From Planctomyces sp. (GTDB lineage Bacteria > Planctomycetota > Planctomycetia > Planctomycetales > Planctomycetaceae): 64,000 nt of DNA. Where the stretch lies: positions 62,001-126,000 of the forward strand of contig JAHBXW010000012.1 of assembly GCA_019636235.1 (NCBI GenBank), in the 5' to 3' direction. How positions within the stretch are numbered: the first letter of the stretch is position 1; each line of letters begins with the position of its first letter. This document shows positions 15,383 to 31,687 of the stretch, piece by piece. Made by a program: the position numbers and the translations under genes. The notes under the pieces are model-generated. The model saw nothing but the letters and a program-made list of their open reading frames with translations, searched no databases and was not told the origin of the DNA.

Positions 15383-16324
15383 TCACGGACCGCCGGGCGG
15401 ATTCTCCACTGCCGCCGGATCGTCCGGGCCGCCCCAGGGATTCGCCGGCGGCACTCCGGCGTCGCGCGGCCGTTTCGGCAGCCGCGGAATGAACAGCCGC
15501 ACCGCGAGCGACAATACAATCGCTGCCCCGGCCATCAGCAGCAGCGTTGACCGCGCCGAGGGAGGTCCGATGCGACGCACGGGAGGCGTCGCGGGCGCCG
15601 CCGCCGCTGAGACCTTCCAGCCGGGCGCGATCAGCACTGGAGCCACCGCCGCACCGCCCGGCGTCGCATAACCCATGAGTTTGAAAAAATACCCGGATGT
15701 GCGGGCCGGAATTGAAATTTCGATCCCGGGACGCAGGTCGCCCGAAATCGTCGGCGCGATCACCCGCCAGGGCATCGTCCCGGATTCCTCGGTGAACACC
15801 CACGCGTCATACAGTTCCCCCTCCGGGTCGGGCGTCAGTCGCTCGTTGCAGCGCTGCAGGCGGCGCACGGTCCCTTCGATCCGCAGCAGCTCGCCGCGAA
15901 ACTCCTCGGGCCGCTGCTTCAAGTCCGCGATCGGAACGTTTGCCAGCCCGGCTTCGCCGACGGCCTGCTGCGGCAGCTCGGATGCGGCGGCCAGCAGCGC
16001 CTCCACGACATCCTGCTCCTGACGCAGCAAGCCCACCTGTCGCTCTTCGATCCGCTCCCACAGGCCCGCGTCGATATCCGCCTGCTGCTCGACGTCGGCC
16101 GCGGTCCCGCGGGAGACGACCTCGACCTTCACCGCGGAGGCGACGTCCGGCCCGGCGGCCGCCTGCCCCGAAGCATTCGGGAACATCCAGTCCCACGTCG
16201 ATGGCCGGCCCACGATTGGAATCGCCAGCAGCACCATCGCCAGCAACAGGCACATCGTCCCCAGGGGCAGCACCGTGCGGCGCGGCGGAGACACGTGCGT
16301 GATCAGGCGCTTGCGCGGCGGCAT
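15383..16324 (-). CDS. Two-span membrane protein of unknown function
   Basis: A 313-residue protein with one span near residues 18-40 and a second near 255-277. Between them is a soluble region with a helical part (about 70-120) and an OB-like or beta-rich part around ELLRIEGTVRRLQR and DAWVFTEESGTMPWRVIAP. The C-terminal tail after span 2 is Pro-rich. I do not recognise a named family. It is the last gene of the long minus-strand series, 6 bp after the PVC heme protein gene, so it is probably co-transcribed and may tether or accompany that protein. Confidence 0.6.
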   Translation of the reverse strand: MPPRKRLITHVSPPRRTVLPLGTMCLLLAMVLLAIPIVGRPSTWDWMFPNASGQAAAGPDVASAVKVEVVSRGTAADVEQQADIDAGLWERIEERQVGLLRQEQDVVEALLAAASELPQQAVGEAGLANVPIADLKQRPEEFRGELLRIEGTVRRLQRCNERLTPDPEGELYDAWVFTEESGTMPWRVIAPTISGDLRPGIEISIPARTSGYFFKLMGYATPGGAAVAPVLIAPGWKVSAAAAPATPPVRRIGPPSARSTLLLMAGAAIVLSLAVRLFIPRLPKRPRDAGVPPANPWGGPDDPAAVENPPGGP

Positions 16325-16330
16325 GAGCGT

Positions 16331-19327
16331 TCAGCGAATGACTTCCGGAGGAACAGAACCGTCGAGGTATCTCCAATTCTTGACGAACGAGATGACGTCG
16401 GCCAGATCCTGAATCGAGAGCTCGCGTTCAAATCCCGCCGGCATCAGGGACACGCCGTTCGATCGGATGAGTTCGATGTTGTCCGACGCCAGCGTGATCT
16501 CGCGTCCTTCGGGCTGGCGCAGCGTCAGCGACGTCGCCGTCTCCGCGGCGATGACTCCCGTGTGAATCACGCCCTGGCGATCCACGACGGTGTAGCTGAA
16601 GTAGTTGCTGTCGATCGCGCGGTTCGGGTCGAGGATGTCGGTCAACAACTGGTCCTGCCGTTTGACGCGCGAGTCGGAGATGTCCGGGGCGACGTTCACC
16701 CCCAATTCGCCGATGCGATGGCACTGCGCGCAATGGCGGACGAACAAGTCGCGGCCACGGGAGGGATCTGCCGGAGCGTCGGGAGCCGGCCGATAACGTG
16801 CCAGCACCTCGGAGCGATCCTCGGGCCGCGCCGCCTCCGCCACCAGCGCGATCCGCGGCTGCAGCGCAGGATCGGCGATTCGTTGCAGTTGCTGCAGCAC
16901 GGCGGCATCGAGATCAGCGACCGCCACTCGTCCCGCGTCGATCTCATCGAGCAGCGCGCCGGCCCGGTCCGCGCGCGAGGCCACGAGCGTCAGAATCGTC
17001 CGCCGCAGCGACGGGGTCCGCGTCTCAAAGTCAGTCAGCAGCGCCGCGGCGACGTCCGGATCGAAGCGACGCGCGAGCGTCTGAGCGGCCGCCGACGCCA
17101 GCCCCGGATCGGGACAGCTCATCGCCGCGGTCAGCACGGGCGCGGCCGTCGCATCGTTCGAGAACTCAAGCAGCCGAATCGAGGCGAGTCGCAGATCCGG
17201 TTCCGCATCGGAATCCTGAATGGCCTCGCAGGCCAGTTCCAGTTCGTCGGCGAGAGAGACGCCCGCCGCGGCAGCGGCCGCGCCCAGCGCCCCGGCCGGC
17301 GCATGTCCCCGGGCGCGCAGACCATCCGCTGCGCGAAGCCACAACTGGCTGACCCACGCCAGACGATCCCGGCGGGATGCGGGCCGCACGGAATCGATGG
17401 CCCGCAGCAACGCCGCCAGTTCGTCCGGCTGGTTGCGGCCGCCAATCACCTCCGCGAGACGTCCCAATCCGACGCCGGCCGCCAGCTGCGCTTCCGGCCC
17501 GTTCCCGGACAGTCGCGACAGCACATCCAAGAACACGTCCGCCACGTCGCGCTGTGCTGCGAGCGCCACGGCCGTCGCCAGCCACGCGTCCGACCCGTCG
17601 GCCGCCAGCAAGCTCCCCAGCGTCCGAGTTCTGCGGGAAGCAGGCGGCGCCGCTCCCAACGCCAACGCGAGTTGGAACCGCAAACGGGTCGTCAATGGCC
17701 GTTCGGCGATGCCCTCCAACAGGGACGCGTCGTCCGGCGCGCTGGCCAGGCGGCGCTCCACGAGGGCCAGACACTGTTCGACGACGTCTTCCGAGGCGTC
17801 TCCCGCGGCGACTCGAAGATCGTCGATCGTCAGCGTGCCCTGCGCTTCCAGCAGCCACAGCGCGGCGGCCTTCGCGGCCGGATGCCCCTCGGAGTTGAGC
17901 AGTTGACGCAGCGGCTGGACGCTGGCCGGATCCTGACGCTCGAACAGCAGCCGGAATGCCGTCTCGCGCTGCCACCCCCAGGGATGAGCCAGTCGCTCGA
18001 CGAGCAGATCGGTCGGCGGCGCGTCGTCGAACACGGGCGCCGCAGCTCTCGCATTCGCGGCCGCGCGCGGACGAATGCGGTAGATGCGGCCGCGATCGCT
18101 GCCCAGCGTCAGGTCGGGACGCGTCCGCAACTCTTCGGGCATGTACTCGGGGTGTTCGATGACCGCGCGGTGCATGTCGACGACATACAGCGCGCCGTCC
18201 GGACCGAACGTCAGGTTCACCGGGCGGAACCAGAGGTCCTCGGTCGCCAGAAACTCACGGCCGTCGTGCGGACTGTGCGATTCAAACGTCGCGCCGGCGG
18301 GATGCATTCGCTCCCGGTGCACCAGGTTGCCGGTCGGATCGCAGACGAACAGGTCGCCGCGAAACCCGTCCGGCAGCGCGGAACCTCGCTCCAGCCGAAG
18401 TCCGCAGGCCGCGGTGAACTGGCCGGCATGCAGGTTTGATGTCGTCCAGAACCGGCTGATCGGGTGAATGCGGGACTCGTCTCCCGCCCGGGCGACATCG
18501 TGAACGACGGCCGAGGCGGTCACATCCGCGTTTCGGCGCAGCGCCGATTCCGGAACGACGGCGTGCATGCAGGGATTCCGGTTGCTGCATAGAAACCGCC
18601 GCCCGAAGTCGTCGAACGCCATGCCGTACTGCCCGAAGCCGGATGTCGTCTCCGCGGCGCCGGTCGCCGGGTCGAACCGGAAGTCGCGTCCGCCCAGCGT
18701 CACAGGATCGTGCGGCGCCCAGCCCTCCCGCTCGGCGGCGACCACGCCGCCCCGCAGGCCGTTGGCGACGTAGATCCAGCCGTCGAGTCCCAGCGTCGGG
18801 CTGTTGCAGCGAAGCTGCGGGTTCTCGCGCGCGAAGCCGGCGAACCAGGTTTCGCGGACCTCCGCGCGGCCGTCGCCATCCCGATCGGCGAAGAAGTCGA
18901 TCCGGCCGTCGGTCGTCGCCAGGACGCCGTCGCGCCAGAACATCAGGCTGTTGGGGAATGTGAGGTCTTCCGCGAACGTCTGCGGATCGGAGAATCGTCC
19001 ATAGCCATCGGAATCGGACAACACGCGAATGCGCGACCGGCCCGGCTGTCCCTCGGCCGGCCCGAGGGGATAGTCGCGCATCTCAATGACCCACATCCGC
19101 CCCTGCGGATCGAAGGCGATGCACACCGGATCGATGACGTCCGGCTCCGCCGCGACGAGTTCAATGACCAGATCGTCGTCGAGTTGAAACCGAGTCACGG
19201 CTTCCTCGGGGTCGACCGGGCCGGCGGCTGGTGCGACCGTCTCCTCGGCGGCCGGAGCCGCAGCGAGCGTCGCCAACCACACCGCGCACGCGAATCCGCC
19301 GAAGCCCCCAAGTCGCGTCATGGTCAT
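16331..19327 (-). CDS. PVC-type membrane-bound dehydrogenase / CxxCH heme protein with HEAT-like repeats
   Basis: A 998-residue exported protein (signal peptide through about residue 27). Domains in order: a sorbosone-dehydrogenase-like beta-propeller (about 35-420) with phrases such as VCIAFDPQGRMWVIEMRDYP and FGPDGALYVVDMHR; a helical HEAT-like region (about 425-830); and one c-type cytochrome domain with CAQCH (about 865) and a later Met-rich SLMPAGF. The family is expanded in planctomycetes and is inferred to oxidise sugars or related alcohols in the periplasm, passing electrons to the heme; the substrate is unknown. The start overlaps the RluA-type stop by 4 nt (ATGA); a second ATG lies two codons later. 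Confidence 0.85.
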   Translation of the reverse strand: MTMTRLGGFGGFACAVWLATLAAAPAAEETVAPAAGPVDPEEAVTRFQLDDDLVIELVAAEPDVIDPVCIAFDPQGRMWVIEMRDYPLGPAEGQPGRSRIRVLSDSDGYGRFSDPQTFAEDLTFPNSLMFWRDGVLATTDGRIDFFADRDGDGRAEVRETWFAGFARENPQLRCNSPTLGLDGWIYVANGLRGGVVAAEREGWAPHDPVTLGGRDFRFDPATGAAETTSGFGQYGMAFDDFGRRFLCSNRNPCMHAVVPESALRRNADVTASAVVHDVARAGDESRIHPISRFWTTSNLHAGQFTAACGLRLERGSALPDGFRGDLFVCDPTGNLVHRERMHPAGATFESHSPHDGREFLATEDLWFRPVNLTFGPDGALYVVDMHRAVIEHPEYMPEELRTRPDLTLGSDRGRIYRIRPRAAANARAAAPVFDDAPPTDLLVERLAHPWGWQRETAFRLLFERQDPASVQPLRQLLNSEGHPAAKAAALWLLEAQGTLTIDDLRVAAGDASEDVVEQCLALVERRLASAPDDASLLEGIAERPLTTRLRFQLALALGAAPPASRRTRTLGSLLAADGSDAWLATAVALAAQRDVADVFLDVLSRLSGNGPEAQLAAGVGLGRLAEVIGGRNQPDELAALLRAIDSVRPASRRDRLAWVSQLWLRAADGLRARGHAPAGALGAAAAAAGVSLADELELACEAIQDSDAEPDLRLASIRLLEFSNDATAAPVLTAAMSCPDPGLASAAAQTLARRFDPDVAAALLTDFETRTPSLRRTILTLVASRADRAGALLDEIDAGRVAVADLDAAVLQQLQRIADPALQPRIALVAEAARPEDRSEVLARYRPAPDAPADPSRGRDLFVRHCAQCHRIGELGVNVAPDISDSRVKRQDQLLTDILDPNRAIDSNYFSYTVVDRQGVIHTGVIAAETATSLTLRQPEGREITLASDNIELIRSNGVSLMPAGFERELSIQDLADVISFVKNWRYLDGSVPPEVIR

Positions 19328-20076
19328 GCGGTCCCCTGCTCTCCGGACTCGCGCTCGAAGAACCGTTGATCAAATCCGAACGCCCGCCACGACCGCGGCA
19401 GCGGCGCGACGATCGTCAGCGGATCGTACCGGATGGGGTGCTGGATGGTCAGACTCCATGCGTGCAGCGCGATGGGACGATCGCGGGGATCGTCTTCGGG
19501 GCCACAGCCTCCCGGAAATTCCGTTCGAGCGCCGTACTGGCGATCGCCCACAATCGGCCAGCCCCGGCTGCCGAACTGGATGCGGATCTGGTGCATGCGG
19601 CCGGTGTGCAGTTCGATTTCCACGAGCGCCCGCCCCTGATGAACGGCCAGCGTGCGGTAGGACAGCTCAGCGCGTTTGGCGCCCTCGGCGCCCTCGCGAG
19701 ACAGTTCCACACGCGGCTGCTCCGGCACGCGATACAGCCAGTCGACCAGCGTGCCCTGTGCCGGCTGCGTAGGCCGTTCCAGGCAGGCCCGGTACACTTT
19801 GCGGACCTGGCGTTCGTGAAACTGTTCGGCCAGCCGCGCCGCGCATTTTGAGTTGCGGGAGAACAGCAGCACGCCGGAGACGGGGCGATCCAGCCGATGC
19901 GGCACGCCGAGATAGACATTCCCCGGCTTGTCGTACTTCCTGGCGATATAGGCCTTCACCAGGCCCACGGCGCTGTCGACTCCCTGCGGCGCGCCCTGCG
20001 AGATCAGCCCGGACGGCTTATTGATCGCCAGCACCGGACCGTCTTCGCACAGAATTTCCAGCGAGTCCCCGTTCAC
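19324..20076 (-). CDS. RluA-family RNA pseudouridine synthase
   Basis: Converts specific uridines in rRNA or tRNA to pseudouridine. The 250-residue protein lacks an S4 domain and goes straight into the catalytic domain: motif I ILCEDGPVLAINKPSGLISQ, catalytic motif II GVPHRLDRPVSGVLLF (Asp in HRLD), and motif III HTGRMHQIRIQF with GWPIVGDRQYG. It starts with GTG at 20076. The gene sits inside an operon of envelope proteins, 7 bp after one gene and overlapping the next by 4 nt, so its presence there is more likely chance linkage than function. Confidence 0.9.
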   Translation of the reverse strand: MNGDSLEILCEDGPVLAINKPSGLISQGAPQGVDSAVGLVKAYIARKYDKPGNVYLGVPHRLDRPVSGVLLFSRNSKCAARLAEQFHERQVRKVYRACLERPTQPAQGTLVDWLYRVPEQPRVELSREGAEGAKRAELSYRTLAVHQGRALVEIELHTGRMHQIRIQFGSRGWPIVGDRQYGARTEFPGGCGPEDDPRDRPIALHAWSLTIQHPIRYDPLTIVAPLPRSWRAFGFDQRFFERESGEQGTA

Positions 20077-20083
20077 GCGAGCT

Positions 20084-21703
20084 TCACTTCCGGGCCGCTC
20101 CGCCGCCGCTGACCTTCGCCGAGTCCTCCAGGTCCCTGAGCGACTCCGCGAACTTGTCGGGATCGAGGTGCGTTGCCGCGACCTCCGCGAGCGTGCCGCA
20201 CAACTTGCGGATGCGGCTTTCCGCGACCTGGTCCTTCCTGCCGCGCGCGGCCTCCACGCCGGCGGTCCGCACCAGATCCAGACGCTGCTGAAACGTGCGC
20301 AGGTCCGGAACGGCCTTGAGTTCTTTCAACAGCGAGGTGAAGGCGTCGGTCTGGCCCGCCTTCGCCGCGGCCTGGGCCCGCACGGTCAGCACCTGCCGGC
20401 GGGCGATGAGTTCCACCAGGTCGGCCTCCAGCAGCGACACCTCCGCTTCCACCGACAGCCGCGGCGAATCGTCAATCACGTCCATCCGCAGCGACTCCTC
20501 CGCCCCCGGGCAGAACGGCACGCGTCCCAGCATCGCCTGTCCGCTGAACACCAGCGCCCAGCGAATGACGGTCGAGTCCTCCGCCGGAATGCGCACCCGC
20601 CCGTCGCGATCGGTCCGCATCCGGACGCGATCCAGAACCGGGTCTTCTTTCGTCGGCAGCCGGCCGACGATCTCCACCCGCGCCGCCGCCACTGGATTGC
20701 CGGGGTTGCTGCGCGGCACGACCTGAATGACGGTCGCGGGATGCCAGACCTTTGTCGCCAGGGCCATCGATTCCATCCGCCGCTTGGCCGGCACGACCGC
20801 GGGCGTCGCGTCCGACGTCGCTGTGAAGGTGGACACGGCCTTCGCCTCCACCCGGGCCCGATCGGCGGAGACGACCTGCAACAGCGTCCAGGCGACGGGC
20901 TGAATCCGCCGGACGTCCTTGTTCTTGTCGAGTTGCCGATAGAACGGATCGAGCAGATCGCCCGGCGCGAGCTGCGTCGCCGTCACGTCGGGAGGCAGGA
21001 GTTCGCCCGCCCGAATCCGCAGGACGACGTCCCGGCCTTCGACCGATTCAATCTGCACGAGAGCCCGGAAGGCGTCGCGGACGACCGCCGCCGCCGACAT
21101 GGTCGCCAGCCGGGGGTCCGAGCAGACGTTCGATCGCTCGGGCCCCAGTCGCTGCGACGCCAGGTCCCATTCCCGCACCGCAAACTGAAGCTGGCCCGCC
21201 TCGCGCCCCACGGACAGCGGATAGACCTTGTCGAACGGGGAGGTCTTCCAGCGCTCAAGCGCCGCGGACTGATCGAGTTCACGAAGCCGGGCCAGGGGCA
21301 TCACGTCCGAGCCGCTGGTTTCGCGAACATCGAGCGTCCACATCGCGCCCAGATCGTCGGCCAGTCGGTCGGCGAGTCCCTTCACGAATGCCTGCCGCGA
21401 TGCGACGGAGAGCGCCGGGTCCGGAGCGAACGTGACGGGAATCAGCACGCGGTAGGGCCGCACGCCCCAGGGAAGCTCCTGGGGCGGCGCCGCGGGTGTA
21501 GCGGCTGCGGAGGATTCGACCGTCGGATTCTCGGGCGGGGACTCGGGCGGCTGCGCTGACGCGGATGCCGGCGCCGGCGTCTCCTGGGCGAAGGCCGCCG
21601 TCAACAGAACCCCGCCAAATGCCGCCAGCGCGGCCAGCGTCCAGAACGCAGTCCGGCGAACGGGGGCCTGCGAAGCCTCTGAGTCAGGGCGCATCGGCGG
21701 CAT
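20084..21703 (-). CDS. Exported protein of unknown function, third-last region of the ExbB/ExbD cluster
   Basis: A 539-residue protein with an N-terminal hydrophobic segment (FWTLAALAAFGGVLLTAAFA) then a Pro/Ala/Ser-rich linker and a folded region. The first folded part (about 75-200) has alternating strands and helices around PYRVLIPVTFAPDPAL and may bind or act as a small alpha/beta domain. The middle reads as beta-sandwich (GRVRIPAEDSTVIRWALVFSG), and the C-terminal 130 residues are helical. I match it to no named family. I chose ATG 21703 because GGAGG lies 6 nt before it; it overlaps the upstream gene by 20 nt, so the two are translationally coupled. Confidence 0.6.
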   Translation of the reverse strand: MPPMRPDSEASQAPVRRTAFWTLAALAAFGGVLLTAAFAQETPAPASASAQPPESPPENPTVESSAAATPAAPPQELPWGVRPYRVLIPVTFAPDPALSVASRQAFVKGLADRLADDLGAMWTLDVRETSGSDVMPLARLRELDQSAALERWKTSPFDKVYPLSVGREAGQLQFAVREWDLASQRLGPERSNVCSDPRLATMSAAAVVRDAFRALVQIESVEGRDVVLRIRAGELLPPDVTATQLAPGDLLDPFYRQLDKNKDVRRIQPVAWTLLQVVSADRARVEAKAVSTFTATSDATPAVVPAKRRMESMALATKVWHPATVIQVVPRSNPGNPVAAARVEIVGRLPTKEDPVLDRVRMRTDRDGRVRIPAEDSTVIRWALVFSGQAMLGRVPFCPGAEESLRMDVIDDSPRLSVEAEVSLLEADLVELIARRQVLTVRAQAAAKAGQTDAFTSLLKELKAVPDLRTFQQRLDLVRTAGVEAARGRKDQVAESRIRKLCGTLAEVAATHLDPDKFAESLRDLEDSAKVSGGGAARK

Positions 21704-24344
21704 ACCACGCCTCCAGGTGCCAGCGATCGAGCCGGTCGTAACTGTGCAGCGGATTGGTGGGCACACCGCGAACCTGCTTGCGATACAGCAGGTAACCGTC
21801 GACCTCCCACAAAGGAATGAACCTCACATCGGCCCACAACTGCCGGTGCAGCGTCTGCAACTGATCCACCGCGCGATTCCAGTCGGATGTGCGATCGAGA
21901 GCGACCAGCCCCTGCTGCAGCCAGTCGGGGAACATTTCCAGATCCTGGATGTTCGCCCGGTCCTGAACCGTCAGGAAGGGCCACAGGTCGACGATCGGCT
22001 CCTCCATCTGCAGCGTGCGGTAGGCGATGTCCCAGCCCGCCGCCTCCGCGGAGTCCGGCTCGACCAGCACGACCTCGATGCCGACGCGCTTCCAGGCCGC
22101 CAGCAGCCGCTCCGCGACCAACTGGGGAATCGCCTCCGGAGGCACGGCCATCCGCAGCGGCGGCAGCTCGCCCCCCATCTGCGCGGTGACGGCCAGAGTC
22201 AGCGCCAGCGCGGCCGACAGGTCGTGGTTGCGGGGCGTGAGTTGCGGACTGTTTGCGTAACTGAACGACGGGAACGGCGAATTCACGATCCGGCCATGCG
22301 ACAACTGCCGGCGGTCGCGCAACGACGCCGACAGCGCCAGCACATCGGCATCTCCCGCGCCGCGTTCGGCACGCAGCGTCTGCAACCGCTGCGAATCCGC
22401 CAGCAGGCCGGGATCGCGCAGCACCACATCGAACAGCAGGCGTTCGCGATCGATCGCCTGCATCAGCGCCCGGCGCAGTTCGCGGAAGCCCAATGCGCGG
22501 CTGCGGGGATTGAACTGCAGCACGTGCGTCGTCGGCGCGGAATACTTCTGAATGAAGAAGTCCTTCTCCAGGGCGCGATTCGCCTGCGCCCGGCGGACGA
22601 TCCAGTCCGGCAGATCCGGCAGCATCCAGACGTCCCCCTGCAGGAGCGCCTGATAGGCCCGTTCGTGGCTGTCGTACAACTGTTCGATGACTTCGGTGAC
22701 GTGATACTGCGGCAGACCGTCGGGTTCGAGCCGCAGACGGCGATAGACGGTTCGCCCCTCCTCCGAACTGACGACCGGAAAGCCACCTGACAAAAGCTCG
22801 GCGGTCGCCGTCGATTCGAAGGCCACGGGCTGCAGCCCCTCGACGTCGGCGTCCGGGCTGTCCGCGACGGCCGGTTGTCCTTCGATCGGGCGACTGGAGC
22901 GGCGGGCGGTCGCGTTCCGCAGGATGGGCTCGACGCGGGCCGGAACCCGGGAAAACGTCAGCGAAAACTCGAACGGCGATTCGACCGTCACCGTCCGGAT
23001 GTAGGCGGACAGTCGTTCATCGAAATCGACGGAGGCAGGATCGAGCTGGCTGAGCAGGACATCTCCGAGAACCGAGGCGTCGAGCGGCGGCTGAGCCTCC
23101 CAGGGCTGGCGGGTTTGCGTCAGCGTGAACCGCATCCGACGTCCGAGGTCGAAGGGTTCCCATTCATCGAGGTAGCTGGTCCGGTAATGCGGGATGCCGC
23201 CGCGGAAGGAGTCGACTTCGAACAGGCGGTGATCGGACAGCCGTCGGCCGCGGAGTTCCGCCTCGCCATCGAAAGGAGTTGCCTTGGGCGATCCCGGGAG
23301 CCGCACGACGCCCACCCTGAGCCGCTGGTAACGTTCGGTCGCCGCCTTGTGGCCGGGCCGCAGATTGACGAGCGGCGGCCAGACCTGCACGGCCTCCTCG
23401 GCCAGGGTCGCCGCCAGCGGATGGTCGCCGTTTCGCGTCGCCGCAGCCGACTGATTCATCAGCTCCGTGGCGCGGGCCGCATAACTGGCCGACAGCCGCG
23501 TGAAGACCGGATGATTCGCGAACATCCGGTTCAGCCGCATCAGGAAGTGCCGCGCCTGCAGCGGGTCCGATGCCATCTGCGCCGCCAGGATCAGCTGTTC
23601 CGCCGCCTGCCCCGCGAGTTCCGACAGCCCCGGAAATTCCGGATTCTGGACATGCAGCTCCTCGCAGAGGACGAGCGCCGACTCGGGGCTGCCCTGCGAC
23701 AGCCGCAGTCTGGCGTCAGTCAGCAACAGCGCCTGCCGGCGTTCGGGCAGGCCCGGCCAGTCCGGCCACTGCCGCTCGAACCGCACCAGCAGCTCGTTCG
23801 CCGTTTCGATGTTGCCTTCGGCCAGCAGCGCATCGATCCGCGACAGAATGTGGTCTTCGTGATAGATGATCTGCGAGACCTTGACCCGCGCGATGCGGAA
23901 CTCCTGCGCGGGCGGCCCCGGCATGTTGACGTACAGGAACCGCAGATCTTCAAACTCCCGCTTCCACTGCTCGAACGCCGCGCCGGTTTTGCCCCGACGC
24001 TCCTTCTCCTTTTCCCGGAACGCCAGTTCCAGCTTGTTCAGCGTGTCGGGGCGCGGCGTCACCGGCTCGCTGATGACGACTTCGCCGCTCGACAGCACGA
24101 CCCAGTCGAGCGGCATGCCGTTCAGCAGCGCTTCGAGCGTCGGCGGTTCGAGGTCCTGGAGCCGCGGCAGTGTGATCGATTCCGGAGTCAGGGCGTCCGG
24201 ATCCGCCTCGTCGCCTTCCGCCGTCGCCTCCTGGGCCGCAACCGGACGCGGCGCAAGCGACAGCAGCGCCAGCGACAGGCCCACGACGGCCGCGAGCGAG
24301 ATCGGCAGGCCCGCCATTCGGCGAAGCGCGTCGGCAAGTTTCAT
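21684..24344 (-). CDS. Large exported solute-binding-like protein (SBP family 5-like) with N-terminal helical domain
   Basis: An 886-residue exported protein (signal peptide MKLADALRRMAG to about AQEA). The N-terminal third (about 50-340) is helical and TPR-like. The C-terminal half resembles oligopeptide/dipeptide-binding proteins: segments such as VLQFNPRSRALGFRELRRALMQAIDRERLLFDVVL and a late LLAAWKRVGIEVVLVEPDSAEAAGWDIAYRTLQ match family 5 binding proteins by pattern. There is no ABC permease or ATPase nearby; its partners are ExbB/ExbD-type genes. It overlaps the upstream FHA/propeller gene by 4 nt (ATGA). It could capture peptides or envelope polymers for the energised complex, but that is inference. 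Confidence 0.7.
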   Translation of the reverse strand: MKLADALRRMAGLPISLAAVVGLSLALLSLAPRPVAAQEATAEGDEADPDALTPESITLPRLQDLEPPTLEALLNGMPLDWVVLSSGEVVISEPVTPRPDTLNKLELAFREKEKERRGKTGAAFEQWKREFEDLRFLYVNMPGPPAQEFRIARVKVSQIIYHEDHILSRIDALLAEGNIETANELLVRFERQWPDWPGLPERRQALLLTDARLRLSQGSPESALVLCEELHVQNPEFPGLSELAGQAAEQLILAAQMASDPLQARHFLMRLNRMFANHPVFTRLSASYAARATELMNQSAAATRNGDHPLAATLAEEAVQVWPPLVNLRPGHKAATERYQRLRVGVVRLPGSPKATPFDGEAELRGRRLSDHRLFEVDSFRGGIPHYRTSYLDEWEPFDLGRRMRFTLTQTRQPWEAQPPLDASVLGDVLLSQLDPASVDFDERLSAYIRTVTVESPFEFSLTFSRVPARVEPILRNATARRSSRPIEGQPAVADSPDADVEGLQPVAFESTATAELLSGGFPVVSSEEGRTVYRRLRLEPDGLPQYHVTEVIEQLYDSHERAYQALLQGDVWMLPDLPDWIVRRAQANRALEKDFFIQKYSAPTTHVLQFNPRSRALGFRELRRALMQAIDRERLLFDVVLRDPGLLADSQRLQTLRAERGAGDADVLALSASLRDRRQLSHGRIVNSPFPSFSYANSPQLTPRNHDLSAALALTLAVTAQMGGELPPLRMAVPPEAIPQLVAERLLAAWKRVGIEVVLVEPDSAEAAGWDIAYRTLQMEEPIVDLWPFLTVQDRANIQDLEMFPDWLQQGLVALDRTSDWNRAVDQLQTLHRQLWADVRFIPLWEVDGYLLYRKQVRGVPTNPLHSYDRLDRWHLEAWYAADAP

Positions 24345-27300
24345 GGTTGCGCCTCCGGCACGAGGACCAGGCTTCCATCCATCGCGGGGACATACAGCTT
24401 GGTCCCGACCGCCACCGGCTCGCCGTTGAGAGCGACGTTGAGTTCCAGCGCCGACTGAATGGCGCCGCTGCCGGGATCGCAGTCGACGATCCGGCCGTCC
24501 TGCAACGGGATCATCAGGGTTCCGCCACGCGGCGTCGGCGTGCCGGCCACATGCGTGCCATCCAGCGGCAGCACCCACAGCTCGGGCAGGTCCGCCGCGA
24601 TTGACAGCGCGTGCAGCTCCGTCCCGCCGACCTCCACGAGGACCATGTCGCCAGTCAGCCAGGGTCCGGCCGTCACTGCCGCGGGCAACTGCCGGGTGCG
24701 GGGCTCAAACACATCGGAGGGAATGACGGCCACCTGGCCATCGACCGACGCCACCGCAAGCCGCCCCTCCGCGAACGCCGGCCGGCCGCCCAGCGGCGCG
24801 TTCAACGCGTATCGGCCAGCCTCCGCGACGTGGGGCCGGGGATTCGACTGCAGCCGGACGGAGAACACGATGCCGCTCTCCAGAACGGCGACGCCGGAAT
24901 CGTTCCCAGCGGCGAACGCCGCGCTCCAGCGCGCCCCGGCGTCGATGTCGCCCGGCAGCTTGAACTCCTGACCGGCCTGCTGGCCGTTGGTCGCCTGCAG
25001 CAGTTGCAGAGCCCCGGCGACCGGCGCGAGGATCCGATTCCCCAGCAAGGCCGGCGCCGCCTGCAGCGGCTGCGACAGGATCAGCGAACGCTCGATCTGG
25101 CCGACGCGATTGACGACCCACAGGCGGGGATCGGGCAGGCCGCAGGCCACCATCAGCTGACCGTCGCCGATCGCCCGCGCCAGCAACGGATCGGCGAGTT
25201 CCTCGTTCAGCGGCAAACGCTCCGCCACCGACAGGAAGCCGCCCGACTCCAGATGCCGCGCCGTGATGCGGAACAGGTTGCCGGACTCGGTCGCGCAGAT
25301 CACCGACGGCGAGTCCCCCGACACCGGGCTGGCCGCGAGAATCTCCGCCCCGACGATCGCCTGCCAGTCGCCGCTCAGCGACGTGCGATCCACCGGCGTC
25401 AGCACGACGGCGTCGGAATAGCGCCGCTTCCGAGCGACGTACATCATCCGGTCCTGGTACTGCAGAGGCTGGGAGGCCCGGCCGAGCAGGATCGGCTCCT
25501 GGGCCGGTTGCAGCGCGTCGACCGTCAATTGCAGCTTGCGGAGAGCCGTGCTGGCCATGAACAACTCTTCGTCCGGCGCGGGCGCGAGGTAGGTCACCGT
25601 GGGCTGCCCCCCTTTGACCTCATACGTCGGTCCCGTCGACAGCGGCGGTTGCCCCATCTCGGCCGACAGCAGGAAGGCCGCCACGCGCTCGCCCGTGGAC
25701 GGCACGAACAGGTCCCGACCCCGGACGGCCGGCGGGTCGACGACCTGCCCCGCCACATCCGCCGTCGCGATGTCGCGCAGCGGCTGGTCCTTGGGCTCCG
25801 TCGTCAGCAGCCGCAGCCGGCAGGTGTTGGTGGTGCGATTCTCCGCCGCCAGCACGTACGGCCCCATCGACAACAGCGGGGCCACGATCGACTTGGACGG
25901 CTGTCCGAGGTACGAAACGGCGACGCACGCCAGCGGCCGCTTGGTGATCGTGTAGAACACTTCCCGATCCCCGCCCACCACGATCCGCGAACCGTCGTCC
26001 AGGGCCACCGGGTTCGAAATCTCCTGCGAGAACCGCAGCCGTCCCGTCGCCCGGCCCGTCTCCAGGTCGAAGCGGTACAGCACCCCGCCCGCGGTCGGCA
26101 CGTAGACCTGCCCCTCATCGAGCAGCGGCCGCCCGCTGGCTGGTGAATCGACGGGCTGGCGCCACAGCGCCTGTCCGGAGTTCTGCTGGATCCGGAGGAC
26201 TTCCTGGCGCACGTTATCGAAGGCGATCAGGCTGCTCGTCCCGGCGTCGCGAACCGGGAAGAACGGGCGCTCGGCGCCGACGGTGACCTTCCAGACCGGC
26301 GCGCCGGTGATCGTGTCGATGCCGAACAGGCTGTCCTCCGCGAGGACCGGGATGGCCCGCTGCACGGAAACCTGGTCGGTGCGCGTACGGGCCTGGTACA
26401 CCAGCGAGATTGTCCCCGGATTGGTCGGCAACGGGTCCTTGATGGCCTCCAGCTCGAAGGCGTCGTCCTGAACGAGCTCCCGCTCGGTCTCCAGCATCTT
26501 CTGCGTCGCGGCCAGCACGCGACGGTCGCGCTCCAGGTCCGGATATCGGGCCAGCAGCTCCCGCCGCAGGACCAGCGCCTCCAGCGGCTGCTTTCCGGCG
26601 ATCGCCTCGTCGATCCGAGCGAGCAGCGATTCGTAGGTCTCGTTCTTGAGGATCGCCGCTTCCGAGTCCCGCCCCAGCGCATCGATCCGCTTCAGCTCCT
26701 CGGTGGGCTGCGCGTCCCGGGGGGAGTTCGTCGCGAACACCCCTTTGGCCTCCTGGGAAATCGCCAGCAGATCCCGCGCGTACGGCGGCCGGCCAGCCAT
26801 TTTCGCAGCGCCTTCCGCCACCTGACCCGCGCGCGTGGCCAGCTGCTGCTGCAGTTCTCCGAATCCCGGCAGTTCGCGTCGCGCCGCGATGAAGTCCTTC
26901 AGCAGTTTGAATCCCTCCGGGAAGTTCGGCGTGGCGCCGTTGATCTGCTGGTCGATCCGCGCCAGGCCGAGCTGCACGCGCGCCTGCGGCGCCAGCGACG
27001 ATTTCGCATGCAGTTGCAGGAACTTCGTCAATTCGGCGATCGCTTCGTTGTATTTCTGTTGCTCGAACAGCGAGTTCGCCGCGTCGTATGCCATCTGCGT
27101 CGACTGGCGATTGCCGATGAAATAGAAGACGGCCGCCGCCAGCGCCAGAACCAGCGAGCCAATGGCCAGGCCCAGCACCAGGGGCGATCGGGCGACGTCC
27201 TGCTCGCCCGGCCGCGCGTGCTGCTCCTTCATCGCGCGGCGGATGCGGTCGGTCACCGTGTCTTCCGATGTCGCGGCAGCCGCAGGCGCGGGCGCGGACG

Positions 27301-28237
27301 ATGACTCGACCTCGTCCCGCGAGTCCCGTTCAAGCCGATCATCAAGGGGCTCGTCGGGAGCCTCGTCGTCGGGGGGCTCGAAGAGGTCATCCAGCGCCTC
27401 GTCCCGGCGCGGCTTTGACGATGACGGCGCCTTGGACCCGCGACTTTCGGCGGCCAGCGCCGCCAGCCCCGCATCGAGATCGAGTTCCCGCACGGGCTTC
27501 TTGGCGGGCGCTTTCGGCGGTTCCGGCGCGGGGCGCCTCGGTTCTTCGGCGCGGGCGGGGGGCGACGCCTCCCGGGACGGCTTTTTGGGAGGTTCCGGGG
27601 ACCGCTCGGCGGGACGTTCCGCTTTGGCGGACGGCTTGGAGGAACTCGCCTTGCCGGGAGGGGCCTTGTCTCCCGCGGACCGCGGCGCCGGGGACTTGGA
27701 CGACGAGGACGACGTTTTCTGCGCCGAGGGCGCCGTGGACTTCGGTGACCCCTTCGCGGCGGAACCGGCACTTCGCGGAGCGCTGTCGCCCGCGGGCCGG
27801 GACGCGGGTTTGGCCGGCGCCGTCGGAACCTTGGACGGTTGGCTGGCACTCCCTTTGAGCCATTCCGGGACGTTGACTTCTTCGGACAACGGCTTCAGGG
27901 AGATCTCGCTGAGTCCTCCCTCGCTTTCCCGGGGAGCTTTAGCGGCGGCTTCATCGTCGCGAAAGCGGACATCGACCGTGCCAAAACGGAGCACGTCCCC
28001 GGGCTTGAGAGTGGCCCGCTGCACGATGGCCCCGTTGACTTCCAGGCCGTCCACGCCGGCCGCCACCGCCTCGAACGCTTCCTTCGCCCAACTGACCCGG
28101 CAATGCATCGACTCGACGGCATCCTCGTCGATCTGGATGTCATTGGAGGCATGACTGCCGATCGACACGGGCTGCTGCTTCTCGAGCGGACGCTGCTCCG
28201 TTTCGCCAGTCAGGTGAATGATTTCAAGGAACGCCAT
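24341..28237 (-). CDS. FHA domain - transmembrane - TPR-like - PQQ-type beta-propeller protein
   Basis: A 1,298-residue protein joining cytoplasmic and periplasmic modules. Residues 1-97 form an FHA domain (VSIGSHASNDIQ, then ESMHCRVSW) that would bind phosphothreonine. Residues about 100-345 are a disordered Pro/Ser/Lys/Glu-rich linker. One span lies at about 351-375 (LVLGLAIGSLVLALAAAVFYF), then a TPR-like helical part (about 380-600). The rest (about 620-1298) has repeated WXXP-like and glycine-rich blades of a PQQ-type propeller (for example GALWRQPVDSPASGRPLLDEG). FHA would face the cytoplasm and the propeller the periplasm. I start at ATG 28237; the frame opens earlier only through a TTG. 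It is coupled to the binding-protein gene by ATGA overlap. Confidence 0.82.
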   Translation of the reverse strand: MAFLEIIHLTGETEQRPLEKQQPVSIGSHASNDIQIDEDAVESMHCRVSWAKEAFEAVAAGVDGLEVNGAIVQRATLKPGDVLRFGTVDVRFRDDEAAAKAPRESEGGLSEISLKPLSEEVNVPEWLKGSASQPSKVPTAPAKPASRPAGDSAPRSAGSAAKGSPKSTAPSAQKTSSSSSKSPAPRSAGDKAPPGKASSSKPSAKAERPAERSPEPPKKPSREASPPARAEEPRRPAPEPPKAPAKKPVRELDLDAGLAALAAESRGSKAPSSSKPRRDEALDDLFEPPDDEAPDEPLDDRLERDSRDEVESSSAPAPAAAATSEDTVTDRIRRAMKEQHARPGEQDVARSPLVLGLAIGSLVLALAAAVFYFIGNRQSTQMAYDAANSLFEQQKYNEAIAELTKFLQLHAKSSLAPQARVQLGLARIDQQINGATPNFPEGFKLLKDFIAARRELPGFGELQQQLATRAGQVAEGAAKMAGRPPYARDLLAISQEAKGVFATNSPRDAQPTEELKRIDALGRDSEAAILKNETYESLLARIDEAIAGKQPLEALVLRRELLARYPDLERDRRVLAATQKMLETERELVQDDAFELEAIKDPLPTNPGTISLVYQARTRTDQVSVQRAIPVLAEDSLFGIDTITGAPVWKVTVGAERPFFPVRDAGTSSLIAFDNVRQEVLRIQQNSGQALWRQPVDSPASGRPLLDEGQVYVPTAGGVLYRFDLETGRATGRLRFSQEISNPVALDDGSRIVVGGDREVFYTITKRPLACVAVSYLGQPSKSIVAPLLSMGPYVLAAENRTTNTCRLRLLTTEPKDQPLRDIATADVAGQVVDPPAVRGRDLFVPSTGERVAAFLLSAEMGQPPLSTGPTYEVKGGQPTVTYLAPAPDEELFMASTALRKLQLTVDALQPAQEPILLGRASQPLQYQDRMMYVARKRRYSDAVVLTPVDRTSLSGDWQAIVGAEILAASPVSGDSPSVICATESGNLFRITARHLESGGFLSVAERLPLNEELADPLLARAIGDGQLMVACGLPDPRLWVVNRVGQIERSLILSQPLQAAPALLGNRILAPVAGALQLLQATNGQQAGQEFKLPGDIDAGARWSAAFAAGNDSGVAVLESGIVFSVRLQSNPRPHVAEAGRYALNAPLGGRPAFAEGRLAVASVDGQVAVIPSDVFEPRTRQLPAAVTAGPWLTGDMVLVEVGGTELHALSIAADLPELWVLPLDGTHVAGTPTPRGGTLMIPLQDGRIVDCDPGSGAIQSALELNVALNGEPVAVGTKLYVPAMDGSLVLVPEAQP

Positions 28238-28306
28238 GGAACAGTTTTCTGGAACGGGGAATGTCGTCCTGGTCCGAGTCCCGGCTGCCAACGGGAGCGG
28301 AACGCC

Positions 28307-28957
28307 TCAGTCGTCGTCCTTCCGCGAGATCCGCCGCACACGCTGCATGCCGACGTCGATCGCGGCGCTGGTCACCGCCACGACGGTCCCATGCTTCGCC
28401 TCGTAGGCCGGCTCGATCAGCAGCTCATTCTTGGATTCGCTGGCCATCTTCAGGGCCAGCACATCGCGCAGCTCGGCGAGGCCGGCCACTGGTTCGTCAT
28501 CGACAAGGATCTGGTCGTCAGTGGTAATGGTTACAACGATCGACTCCGAGGCCAGATCCTCGAGCGTGACCGACTGCGCGGCTCCTTCGTCCTCGGGCTG
28601 GGGCGCGGAGGTCTCCAGCGACTTCTGCGTCGAGAACGCGGCCGTCAGCATGAAGAAGATCAGCAACTGAAACGTGACGTCGACCATGGGCGTCATATCG
28701 AGCCCATCCGCGGTGAACTCCCGCTTCTTGAGGCGGACCTGCGGGGCCTCGTCATCGGCCTCGACAGCCGTCCGTTCCCGGACTTCGGGGGGAATGGACA
28801 GTTCCGCCGCGGTCAGGGATTCTCCGGACGCCGCCTCATCCAGCGACGGCACGCGGACCTCGGTGGTGCACGACGGACAGAACACCTCCTGGCCCGCCTT
28901 GCGGGTTGCGATGCTCAGCAGCTGCTGGCAGGACGGGCACCGGAACTGGATGGACAT
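28307..28957 (-). CDS. ExbD/TolR-like protein with N-terminal zinc ribbon
   Basis: A 216-residue single-span protein. The N-terminus holds a four-cysteine zinc ribbon: C7, C10, C27 and C30 (CPSC repeated). The middle (about 80-115) is the ExbD membrane segment with the conserved Asp in MVDVTFQLLIFFM (Asp 93), which in ExbD carries the proton. The C-terminal periplasmic domain (about 140-205) matches ExbD. The ribbon would sit in the cytoplasm, where canonical ExbD has only a short tail, so it may bind a regulator or nucleic acid. AAGGA lies about 9 nt upstream. A second, plain ExbD is 80 bp upstream. Confidence 0.85.
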   Translation of the reverse strand: MSIQFRCPSCQQLLSIATRKAGQEVFCPSCTTEVRVPSLDEAASGESLTAAELSIPPEVRERTAVEADDEAPQVRLKKREFTADGLDMTPMVDVTFQLLIFFMLTAAFSTQKSLETSAPQPEDEGAAQSVTLEDLASESIVVTITTDDQILVDDEPVAGLAELRDVLALKMASESKNELLIEPAYEAKHGTVVAVTSAAIDVGMQRVRRISRKDDD

Positions 28958-29037
28958 CCGCCGCGATCCTTGTTGCCGTTTCGGACAGGCCGGCGACCGT
29001 CGCCGGCAGACCCCGGGGAGGGGCCGTCACGTCAGGG

Positions 29038-29466
29038 TCAGTTCTGCGGCACGTCCTGCACGCCGACGAAGAACTGCTCGATTCCTTCCACCTCGTTGGC
29101 CGCCCGGGCGACTTCCTCGACGAACCCCGAAGGGGCCTCCCGGTCGGCCTTGATGATCACCGTCGTCTTCTGCGATTCGCGCTTGCCCTGCTCGACATAC
29201 GCCGTCACTTCGGGCAGCGTCACCGGGCCATTGGCCTTTTTGCCGTCGGACAGGTAAACGCCCGCCTCGCCGTCGTCCATCAGCACGGTCACGATCGTCG
29301 AAGTGTCGGTGATGACGCCCTTGCCGTGCTTGGCGGGGGGCAGCTTGAGGACGCTGGCGGCGTCCATCGTCGACGACACCATGAAGAAGATCAGCAGCAG
29401 GAATGTCATGTCGATCATGGGCGTGATGTCCATGTCGTCTTCGATGGCGAATCGCTTGCGTGCCAT
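29038..29466 (-). CDS. ExbD/TolR-family biopolymer transport protein
   Basis: Stator-rotor-type energy-coupling subunit. At 142 residues it has the normal ExbD length, with the membrane segment DITPMIDMTFLLLIFFMV and the conserved proton-carrying Asp at 19. The periplasmic domain follows, ending with VVGVQ-like ExbD sequence. It lies between the ExbB-type gene and the zinc-ribbon ExbD, so the complex may use a mixed ExbD dimer. Spacing to its neighbours is 73-80 bp, larger than the rest of the operon, which could hold ribosome sites or small signals. Confidence 0.9.
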   Translation of the reverse strand: MARKRFAIEDDMDITPMIDMTFLLLIFFMVSSTMDAASVLKLPPAKHGKGVITDTSTIVTVLMDDGEAGVYLSDGKKANGPVTLPEVTAYVEQGKRESQKTTVIIKADREAPSGFVEEVARAANEVEGIEQFFVGVQDVPQN

Positions 29467-29539
29467 GCTCCGCCTTTTGTCTCAACCAACTGCCGCCGGA
29501 TCGCGGCGTCTGTGGGCCTCTGGCTGACGCCGGGCCGCG

Positions 29540-30265
29540 TCAATCGCTAAGCGCGCGTTCCAGGTCGTGGAAGAACTCGCCCAGATGCTCCTGCACGGAA
29601 TCCACGAGCTTGCTGATCCGCACCTGCACCATGCCGCCCAGCATGGTCATGGGGATGGCGATCGTCAGCCCCCACATCGTGGTCAACAGCGCGAGGCTGA
29701 TGTCGTCGGCCAGCTGTTTGGGATCGGTGCCGGTGGAACTGGCGGTGGCGATCTTGGCGAACGCCAGGATCATGCCCGTGACCGTGCCGAGCAGCCCCAG
29801 CATGGGGGCCGTCTTCACGACCATGGAGATTCCCGAGTGGCGATAAGTCAGGTCGGCGACGACGTCGCGCTCAAACTTCTCCGTCAGCAGGCCCCGCAGC
29901 TTGGCGACGCCGCGATCGCGGTTGGCCAGCGCCAGCAGGATCAGCTGGGGAACGGCCTTCGACCAGTAGGGGGGCGAATCGCAGACCTCGCCCGCCCCCT
30001 CGAAGTCCTTGCGGTCCATCCGTTCGCGAACGTCGCTGAGAAACTGCTCGGCCTCCTGTTCGCTCGCGAACCGCTTCTCGCGGATCTTCCGCATCAGCAG
30101 GATGAACAGGAACACGCCATACATGGCCGACAGCGCCTGGGCGGTGTAGATCACCGGTCCCGACAGGCTGAGGGCGTAGTCCAGGAGCCCCCGCGACCCG
30201 GCGGGCTCGGCCGTCAGGTCCTGGGCGAGCACGAGTCCTGCTTGCACTGAGGCAGGTCCGAACAT
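29540..30265 (-). CDS. MotA/TolQ/ExbB-family proton channel protein
   Basis: Forms the proton channel with ExbD-type partners. The 241-residue protein has three spans: about 35-55 (YTAQALSAMYGVFLFILL), and the two conserved channel spans, GISMVVKTAPMLGLLGTVTGMILAF and SLALLTTMWGLTIAIPMTMLGG, the TolQ/ExbB signature. I start at ATG 30265 because GGAG lies 9 nt before it; an earlier TTG (30280) is also open. It is followed by two ExbD genes and preceded by a single-span protein, the order of an energised envelope complex. Confidence 0.9.
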   Translation of the reverse strand: MFGPASVQAGLVLAQDLTAEPAGSRGLLDYALSLSGPVIYTAQALSAMYGVFLFILLMRKIREKRFASEQEAEQFLSDVRERMDRKDFEGAGEVCDSPPYWSKAVPQLILLALANRDRGVAKLRGLLTEKFERDVVADLTYRHSGISMVVKTAPMLGLLGTVTGMILAFAKIATASSTGTDPKQLADDISLALLTTMWGLTIAIPMTMLGGMVQVRISKLVDSVQEHLGEFFHDLERALSD

Positions 30266-30310
30266 CTGCAGTTGCTCCAATAGGAACGGGGACAGCCGCG
30301 CCGGGGCGGG

Positions 30311-31213
30311 CTATTTCAAATAAGTCTGACGAGTCACCTCAAAGGAGTAGCCGCCGCGCTGGGCCAGCACCTGGAAGTATGTCCGGCGAATGTCCTTAGC
30401 CGGACGGTTGGCGTACTTGAGTTCCAGCGTGGCCAGCACGTTCTCGATGTTCTCGGGATAGAAGTGCAGGATGTTGGCCCGCGAGGCGTCGACGCCGGCG
30501 CGCTGAAACAACTGGATGTCCGCCTGCTTCCGCTCTCCCCCCTGCCAGGTGAAATACAGCCGCTTCTCATCCCGGCCGGAGGTCACCACACGCGATTTGG
30601 GGCTCTTCGAAACGTCCGACAGATACACCAGCCGGCCGTCCCGAAACATCGCTCCCAGTTCGATTCCAAAGTAGTCCAACTGAGCCGCGTACGCGGTCAG
30701 CGAGGCGTCGTTGGCGAACTGCACCACCCAGCGCAGCTCCCGCGCCACGCCGCCCCCCGAACCCGGACCGAAGCCCAGCGGACGCCGACCGGTCCCGTCC
30801 ACCGAACCTTCCGCCTCGGCGTACTCGTCCTGCGGCTCGACGAACATCTGCGCCTGAATCGACGCCTGGTCGGACACCTGCGTCACCATGTCCAGTTGCT
30901 CCTGGACCTGCAGTTCGTCGACCTCTTCCGGGGACTCGACCATCGGCGTCTCGTCCGGCGCGCCGTCCAGATCGCCGCCGCCCACGACGTCGACGACCTC
31001 CATCGCCACCAGCAAAGGCGGCGGCGCGGGTCGTGTCTGAAACCAGTAGAACAGCGCCGCGATCACTCCGCCGATCAGCGCCAGCACCAGCGCCATCATG
31101 AATGAGCTGACGCGGTCGTAGGGATTGATCCGCATCACCGGCGTGCGCGGCGCGACGGAACGGGCGGGTGCGTCGGCCGGTGCGGAAGTGGACAGCACCG
31201 GGGGGGCGGCCAT
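30311..31213 (-). CDS. Single-span periplasmic protein, possible TonB/TolA-position partner of the ExbB/ExbD complex
   Basis: A 300-residue protein with a short cytoplasmic start, one span (about 37-61), then an acidic Glu/Gln-rich linker (about 75-130), a glycine-rich turn and a C-terminal folded domain (about 155-300) beginning ARELRWVVQFANDASLTAY. The topology is that of TonB or TolA: N-terminal anchor, extended linker, C-terminal periplasmic domain. The C-terminal sequence does not match TonB; I do not recognise the family. It is the first gene of the operon, 45 bp before the ExbB gene, which supports a mechanical partner role (inference). Confidence 0.62.
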   Translation of the reverse strand: MAAPPVLSTSAPADAPARSVAPRTPVMRINPYDRVSSFMMALVLALIGGVIAALFYWFQTRPAPPPLLVAMEVVDVVGGGDLDGAPDETPMVESPEEVDELQVQEQLDMVTQVSDQASIQAQMFVEPQDEYAEAEGSVDGTGRRPLGFGPGSGGGVARELRWVVQFANDASLTAYAAQLDYFGIELGAMFRDGRLVYLSDVSKSPKSRVVTSGRDEKRLYFTWQGGERKQADIQLFQRAGVDASRANILHFYPENIENVLATLELKYANRPAKDIRRTYFQVLAQRGGYSFEVTRQTYLK

Positions 31214-31687
31214 GCGGTCGGTTGTCCTGTACGGGGTCGAGGGACGGGAACGACTCGGTCGCGAGGTGCGGCAGCCAGCCGGCAGAGATGAGCGATCAAT
31301 CCCTCGAATCTCGCCAGAGGGAACGCGTCCGCCTGAGCGCCGACAACGGCCAGCGTCGTCGGAAAACGGCTTTCGCGGTCCAATCGCCGATGCTATGGCC
31401 GGCGCTGAACACTGTCAACAAGCCGGCGGCCGTTCATCGATGAGGGAAATCCCGCGTGTGATTTCCAACCGGAATCCGCCTGCCTGACCGGGATTCGGAG
31501 GCAGAATTTCATTCGATGCGGGCCGGTTTCCAGATCGGAACGCACATCCCAACGCGGAGGCGCGGCGTTTTTGTCGCGAACATTCTCCGTCCCCGGGAGG
31601 TCCGGGAACGGACCCCTGCGATCCGCCGCGCCCGTCGGCGCGCCGCAGCGCGTTTCATGATTCCGCGGCGACCAGCTGAGGCCTATC
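31214..31687. other. Divergent intergenic region upstream of the ExbB/ExbD operon
   Basis: About 470 bp between the operon start at 31213 and the STAS gene at 31688. It should hold the operon promoter and the STAS promoter. I see no gene, no strong hairpin and no clear repeat. Confidence 0.45.

Follow-up and report, generated by a model that had tools for sequence, protein, structure and literature searches.

A conserved seven-gene set of Planctomycetia proposed to encode a proton-driven trans-envelope machine

Seven genes on the minus strand at positions 20084-31213 of the window (the whole stretch of DNA analysed, 64,000 nucleotides long) form one conserved set, encoding in order a protein in the position of TonB, an ExbB-type protein, two ExbD-type proteins, an FHA-TM-TPR-propeller protein, an SBP5 protein and an exported protein designated g7. 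We propose, with confidence that is about evenly balanced, that the seven products make up a single trans-envelope machine driven by the proton motive force, of the ExbBD/TolQR (5:2 motor) kind, whose task would most likely be the mechanical upkeep of the envelope, as a counterpart of Tol-Pal. The motor is of a known type, and the output machine is undescribed in the literature searched.

The ten minus-strand frames of the region are all open, with a third-position G+C content of 79-89%, and the gaps and overlaps between them agree with the spacings originally predicted. The first gene (30311-31213) encodes the TonB-position protein, a proposed force transducer of 300 aa with an N-terminal TM helix (residues 37-55), an acidic linker and a C-terminal alpha/beta domain (approximately residues 158-300). 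The second (29540-30280, with a start codon at TTG 30280 or ATG 30265) encodes an ExbB/TolQ/MotA-type motor protein with three TM helices (PF01618, 2e-21). After a gap of 73 bp comes the first ExbD/TolR-type axle protein (29038-29466 in its true frame; PF02472, 2.5e-19; TM Asp present), and after a further 80 bp the second, ZnExbD (28307-28957; PF02472, 4e-22), which carries a cytoplasmic N-terminal CxxC-x16-CxxC zinc ribbon; each ExbD has one TM helix. The gene for the FHA-TM-TPR-propeller protein (24341-28237; FHA, 1e-8; PQQ_2, 6e-18) lies 69 bp from that of ZnExbD and overlaps by 4 nt the gene of an exported TPR-SBP5 protein of 886 aa (21684-24344, ATG at 24344; SBP_bac_5, 3e-9), which in turn overlaps by 20 nt the gene for g7 (20084-21703, ATG at 21703). 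Both exported proteins begin with a signal-like helix, and the SBP5 protein has an N-terminal TPR-like region. Three local neighbours outside the conserved system follow: an RluA-family pseudouridine synthase (19324-20076; PseudoU_synth_2, 8e-30) 7 bp beyond g7, a PVC-type heme-binding protein (16331-19327; domain match 8e-87) that overlaps the RluA gene by 4 nt, and, 6 bp further, a two-span protein with no recognised family (15383-16324). The domains that had been called from the letters alone (ExbB, the two ExbDs, FHA, propeller, SBP5, RluA and PVC heme) were borne out by domain scans, which also agreed with the prediction in detecting no TonB, receptor or permease domain in the ten proteins. 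Upstream of the TonB-position gene by 177 bp is a candidate promoter on the minus strand (TTGACA-17-TAGCAT, 31390-31418), the sole sigma70-like match in 17 kb, where 0.7 would be expected; as the promoter of the operon, it is suggestive only.

The conservation of the gene order was analysed in two ways. When relatives were found via the SBP5 protein and 33 neighbourhoods were excised and searched with a profile for each of the ten proteins, the full order of the seven genes on a single strand was present in 19 of the 33 loci, and with the window counted, matches to the FHA-propeller protein, the SBP5 protein and g7 were obtained in 33, 34 and 32 of 34 loci, respectively. A second, independent scan of named genomes used the alignment of the TonB-position protein as the query, the SBP5 alignment being too divergent for a contig scan, and gave 80 loci, nearly all from Planctomycetota or planctomycete taxa, including Gimesia, Thalassoglobus, Schlesneria, Planctomicrobium, Pirellulaceae and Isosphaeraceae. 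The same order was found in 35 of the 49 named planctomycete loci that extended 9 kb or more beyond the TonB-position gene on its downstream side, and order and strand were kept even where the identity of the SBP5 protein and g7 fell to 18-25%. The expectation that ExbB, ExbD, zinc-ribbon ExbD, FHA-propeller and SBP5 would recur in order in other planctomycetes was thus strongly confirmed, and the ordered set extends beyond it on both sides, to the TonB-position protein and g7. On the other hand, the ten genes had been proposed to form one joint system, and this applies to the first seven only: the RluA and PVC heme proteins adjoin the set in a single relative of the same genus (L031), and the two-span protein was absent from every other relative's locus examined. 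The conserved unit is therefore 20084-31213, rather than 15383-31213. At two loci, L099 and L115, the TonB-position gene is preceded on its upstream side by an extra gene resembling that of the FHA-propeller protein.

Where the order breaks, the parts mostly persist as sub-blocks elsewhere in the genome. For instance, in Isosphaeraceae-type genomes (family f2; G025, G030, G034 and G038, at loci L054, L057, L060, L063 and L145-L148) and in G009, the ExbB-ExbD-ZnExbD trio is intact apart from the other four genes, which stay together. In family f4 (G032 and G036), the TonB-position gene and the trio are in one block and the FHA-propeller, SBP5 and g7 genes in another. The TonB-position gene is isolated in Schlesneria-like genomes, among which G042 keeps the remaining six genes together elsewhere, G041 has the trio with the FHA-propeller gene and neither SBP5 nor g7 within the next 6 kb, and G040 has the trio alone within the stretch read. 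In family f3, which is probably Gemmataceae, homologues of the TonB-position, FHA-propeller, SBP5 and g7 proteins are at scattered sites, and the assignment of the motor is uncertain there, with ExbB candidates at 84-90 bits that score no better than paralogues. Because the breakpoints differ while the parts are retained, this pattern argues for joint function. It is this pattern, also, that bears on whether the set is instead two or more functionally separate modules, such as a motor of ExbB, ExbD and ZnExbD and a group of FHA-propeller, SBP5 and g7, which merely share an operon. The parting of sub-blocks in several families is what such modules would produce, but the breakpoints differ by family, the parts are still kept in most genomes and their absences are correlated, and we consider separate modules quite improbable.

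Among 148 genomes of Planctomycetia, the TonB-position protein was found in 133, the SBP5 protein in 142 (weak matches may include ordinary SBP5 proteins), g7 in 134 and the FHA-propeller protein, counted at E 1e-30 or better, in 128. The TonB-position protein and g7 were jointly missing in 10 genomes versus 1.4 expected, a statistic that ignores phylogeny and the detection limits in family f3 and is inflated by divergent and fragmented genomes; these two and the FHA-propeller protein were all missing in nine. In a phylum-wide sample of 159 genomes, the TonB-position protein had 10 matches and g7 had 11, of which 9 in each case were within Planctomycetia, so that these two diagnostic proteins are almost absent outside the class. 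Any core task of the envelope would be compatible with such near-universal presence in the class, not a Tol-like one alone. In four class members (G027, G271, G303 and G318), one of which is a single contig of 7.6 Mb, none of the TonB-position, g7 and propeller proteins was found; these are possible natural losses that could be of use for a comparison of envelope phenotypes.

The family domains of the motor proteins (PF01618 and PF02472) scored well above the cut-off, and the residues expected of a proton-driven motor are conserved: a Thr in TM2 and another in TM3 of ExbB are invariant across 22 orthologues, and the TM Asp is invariant and kept in both ExbD types. The position matching Glu176 of the E. 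coli ExbB is hydrophobic in the operon ExbB orthologues. The four Cys of the zinc ribbon of ZnExbD (C7, C10, C27 and C30) are kept in at least 90% of orthologues. The operon ExbB profile gave 58-95 bits for the other motors of the same genome versus 325-339 bits for the G041 and G042 orthologues, and by these scores the operon ExbB is a subfamily apart from those motors. Beyond the operon, the window's genome (G000) has three or more other sets of the ExbB-ExbD-ExbD type and an additional ExbD, on contigs C10 (L158), C23 (L159), C41 (L160) and C6 (L161); one of these sets adjoins a D-glutamate cyclase gene, and another is flanked by a dicarboxylate symporter on one side and an SBP3-permease fusion on the other. 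It has been reported that high salinity induces RB12053 and RB12055 (exbB/exbD) of Rhodopirellula baltica (PMC2754498), which may or may not be orthologues of the present genes.

We propose the TonB-position protein as a force transducer on the basis of gene position and topology. Its identity as TonB was rejected, as it lacks both the TonB_C domain and the SHLS motif (S-x3-H-x6-L-x3-S), which was present in the TM helix of 0 of 26 TonB-position proteins; no Pfam family, vWA included, was matched by any of the 26 orthologues. The orthologues share 15 invariant columns, and a conserved YDRVSS-like stretch is found where the TM helix begins. The C-terminal domain is modelled by AlphaFold with pLDDT above 90 over most of its length; a sequence search of the PDB with the protein gave no match, and the fold search with this domain gave at best a Foldseek E of 0.06 and a VIA Z of 3.2, with no PDB fold reaching Z 5. 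No TonB, TolA or vWA chain was among the fold matches listed, absence from such a list being no proof.

In the FHA-TM-TPR-propeller protein, a cytoplasmic FHA domain is followed by a TM helix (residues 353-371, by hydropathy) and then by a periplasmic TPR region and PQQ/BamB-like propeller; PF13360 was detected in 31 of 31 orthologues and the FHA domain in 22 of 31. It had been suggested that the FHA domain places an energised machine under Ser/Thr-phosphorylation control. This is unsupported, and a phospho-switch was rejected: the first Arg of the phosphothreonine-binding positions (Arg46) is present in 8 of 23 FHA domains, the loop Ser/Thr60 in 1 of 23 and the next residue, Arg61, in 0 of 23, and the protein in the window has none of the three. 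The FHA domain also matches the YscD-type FHA fold, and because of this match and the loss of the binding residues, a role as a scaffold is more likely than one as a phospho-switch.

The SBP5 domain (PF00496) was present in 33 of 33 orthologues and is NikA/DppA-like, its profile matching NikA at 8e-24. For g7, the AlphaFold model (pLDDT 86) contains a CnaB/transthyretin-like domain (Z 11 to 3e8v) and C-terminal helices, and its N-terminal half matched structures of FlgT, a component of the Vibrio flagellar H-ring (3w1e and 8z5n, Foldseek 8e-9 and 1e-8), and the N-terminal domain of TolB (2e-6). In the model, g7 carries a fold that resembles FlgT/TolB-N; the likeness spans one domain and is one of structure, with no sequence match. 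In contrast to FlgT, g7 adds the CnaB-like domain and the helical tail, and none of the seven genes of the set is flagellar.

The retention of the SBP5 domain makes transport the main rival to the one-machine reading. The set could be an energised importer, in which the motor opens an outer membrane channel and the SBP5 protein captures a substrate, such as a peptide, metal-chelate or oligosaccharide, for onward transport; import is classically powered by ExbB/ExbD, and the SBP5 domain is kept in all 33 orthologues, with NikA/DppA-like profile scores. As in the Ton system, an ExbB/ExbD motor adjoins a protein with one TM helix. However, TonB_C (PF03544) was detected by Pfam neither in the ten proteins nor in the window's genome, where a plug-domain TonB-dependent receptor was likewise absent, and the transducer has no SHLS motif. 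Among 40 relatives, TonB_C was present in 9, suggesting that a Ton system exists apart from the set in some of them, and the plug domain in 14. Furthermore, PF19300, which covers OppB/DppB-type permeases only, was found in 17 of 40 genomes; the window's genome lacks it, as do 22 of 39 other relatives, many of which still carry the SBP5 protein, and the seven conserved genes include no permease or receptor. Therefore, the conservation of the set is explained neither by a Ton importer nor by one of the Opp type, and we regard an importer as possible but rather unlikely. The original prediction of an undescribed transport or envelope-remodelling system holds in that no description of the seven-gene set was found in the literature searched, and does not hold insofar as the evidence gives transport no preference over mechanical work on the envelope. 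The main text of a paper on the essential genes of Planctopirus limnophila makes no mention of ExbB, ExbD, Tol or FHA, and PHROGs gave no matches.

Another alternative is a surface machine like Agl-Glt, in which the motor would move cargo along the envelope or on the outside of it (gliding, a fibre, a pilus or a coat), possibly in connection with the fibres or crateriform pits of planctomycetes. The Agl-Glt machinery of Myxococcus is a similar kit of parts, with one TolQ-like and two TolR-like proteins (AglRQS), the FHA-TM protein GltG and TPR proteins (PMC3169522) in a comparable trans-envelope layout, and the FHA protein in the window (P0005) matched a GltG model at E 9e-4, over residues 42-206 only, which take in the FHA domain and the residues that follow. 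But GltG carries a C-terminal TonB motif (PMC3169522), whereas the FHA protein here ends in a PQQ propeller with no TonB_C; no other Glt family was matched, the Glt outer membrane proteins included; the operon instead encodes a propeller along with SBP5 and TolB-N/FlgT-like domains; and the set is class-wide and not lineage-patchy. We consider a machine of this kind unlikely. The set also resembles the motors with vWA force transducers that have been described in PVC bacteria, including Planctomycetes, in which a TolQ-like gene is accompanied by two different TolR-like genes and the transducers have a C-terminal vWA fold and an SHLS/His motif (PMC12204202). In the operon transducer, no vWA fold was found by Pfam or among the fold matches listed, and no SHLS motif, and the FHA-propeller, SBP5 and g7 proteins are not described in that paper.

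The closest parallel to the one-machine reading is Tol-Pal (TolQ-TolR-TolA-TolB-Pal-CpoB). Both are of seven-gene scale, with a proton-driven TolQR-type motor, a TM-anchored protein where the transducer would be, propeller and TPR parts in the periplasm and, in the g7 model, a TolB-N-like domain, and both can split into sub-loci (for tol-pal, PMC12204202). However, the operon set has two ExbD-type genes, one bearing a zinc ribbon, a transducer with no match to the TonB C-terminal family and no SHLS motif, a BamB/PQQ-type propeller fused to FHA-TM and an added SBP5 protein. None of the seven genes is Pal-like, and the TolB_N family (PF04052) was found in 0 of 40 class genomes, whereas it was detected in the positive controls E. 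coli, Caulobacter and Bacteroides. A survey found Tol-Pal in planctomycetes to be largely reduced in form (PMC8871954).

The reading of a single machine that is a counterpart of Tol-Pal is suggested by the kept order, the sub-blocks, the class-wide presence and near-absence outside the class, the correlated absence, the invariant Asp and Thr residues, the separate ExbB subfamily, the absence of TolB_N in 40 genomes and of TonB_C and Plug in the machine's own genome, the g7 fold and the survey. Such a machine could work as follows. ExbB would assemble into a pentameric channel. Its axle would consist of the two ExbD-type proteins, which judging from the invariant gene pair may heterodimerise, with the zinc ribbon of ZnExbD as a possible cytoplasmic docking site. 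The TonB-position protein would pick up the motion of the adjacent motor and relay it to the periplasm via its C-terminal domain, unrecognised by TonB models. A second arm anchored in the membrane would be provided by the FHA-TM-TPR-propeller protein, whose degenerate FHA domain would act as a scaffold, much as the YscD-like FHA fold does. In the periplasm, the SBP5-like protein and g7 would be soluble partners that pass the motion on to the outer membrane; TolB-N/FlgT-type domains elsewhere sit near the outer membrane. The task may be to tether the outer membrane, to bring about constriction or to organise the periplasm, as a counterpart of Tol-Pal where TolB was not found. We infer that the products form a physical complex, transmit force and contact the outer membrane, and the task likewise.

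To our knowledge, the coupling of inner and outer membranes is an open question in Planctomycetia, which have an odd envelope and no FtsZ. This motor set, which is present in roughly nine in ten genomes of the class, has an unrecognised domain in its transducer and occurs where TolB was not found (40 genomes), is a concrete candidate for this coupling. If this is true, the ExbBD-type force machines gain a family with new output parts. It is a tentative and more far-reaching idea that the set is a class-defining, seven-part proton-driven machine that replaces Tol-Pal in Planctomycetia and mechanically couples the two membranes in cells budding or dividing without FtsZ, by means of a transducer of new fold and a solute-binding protein put to another use.

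Two other minus-strand genes of the window, outside the conserved set, were also observed. Approximately 10 kb upstream of the operon, positions 41792-42775 encode an FHA protein of 327 aa (FHA domain at residues 199-250, E 6e-14), and positions 33856-40569 encode a protein of 2237 aa that joins ThuA, laminin-G-like, DUF6797 and cytochrome c domains.
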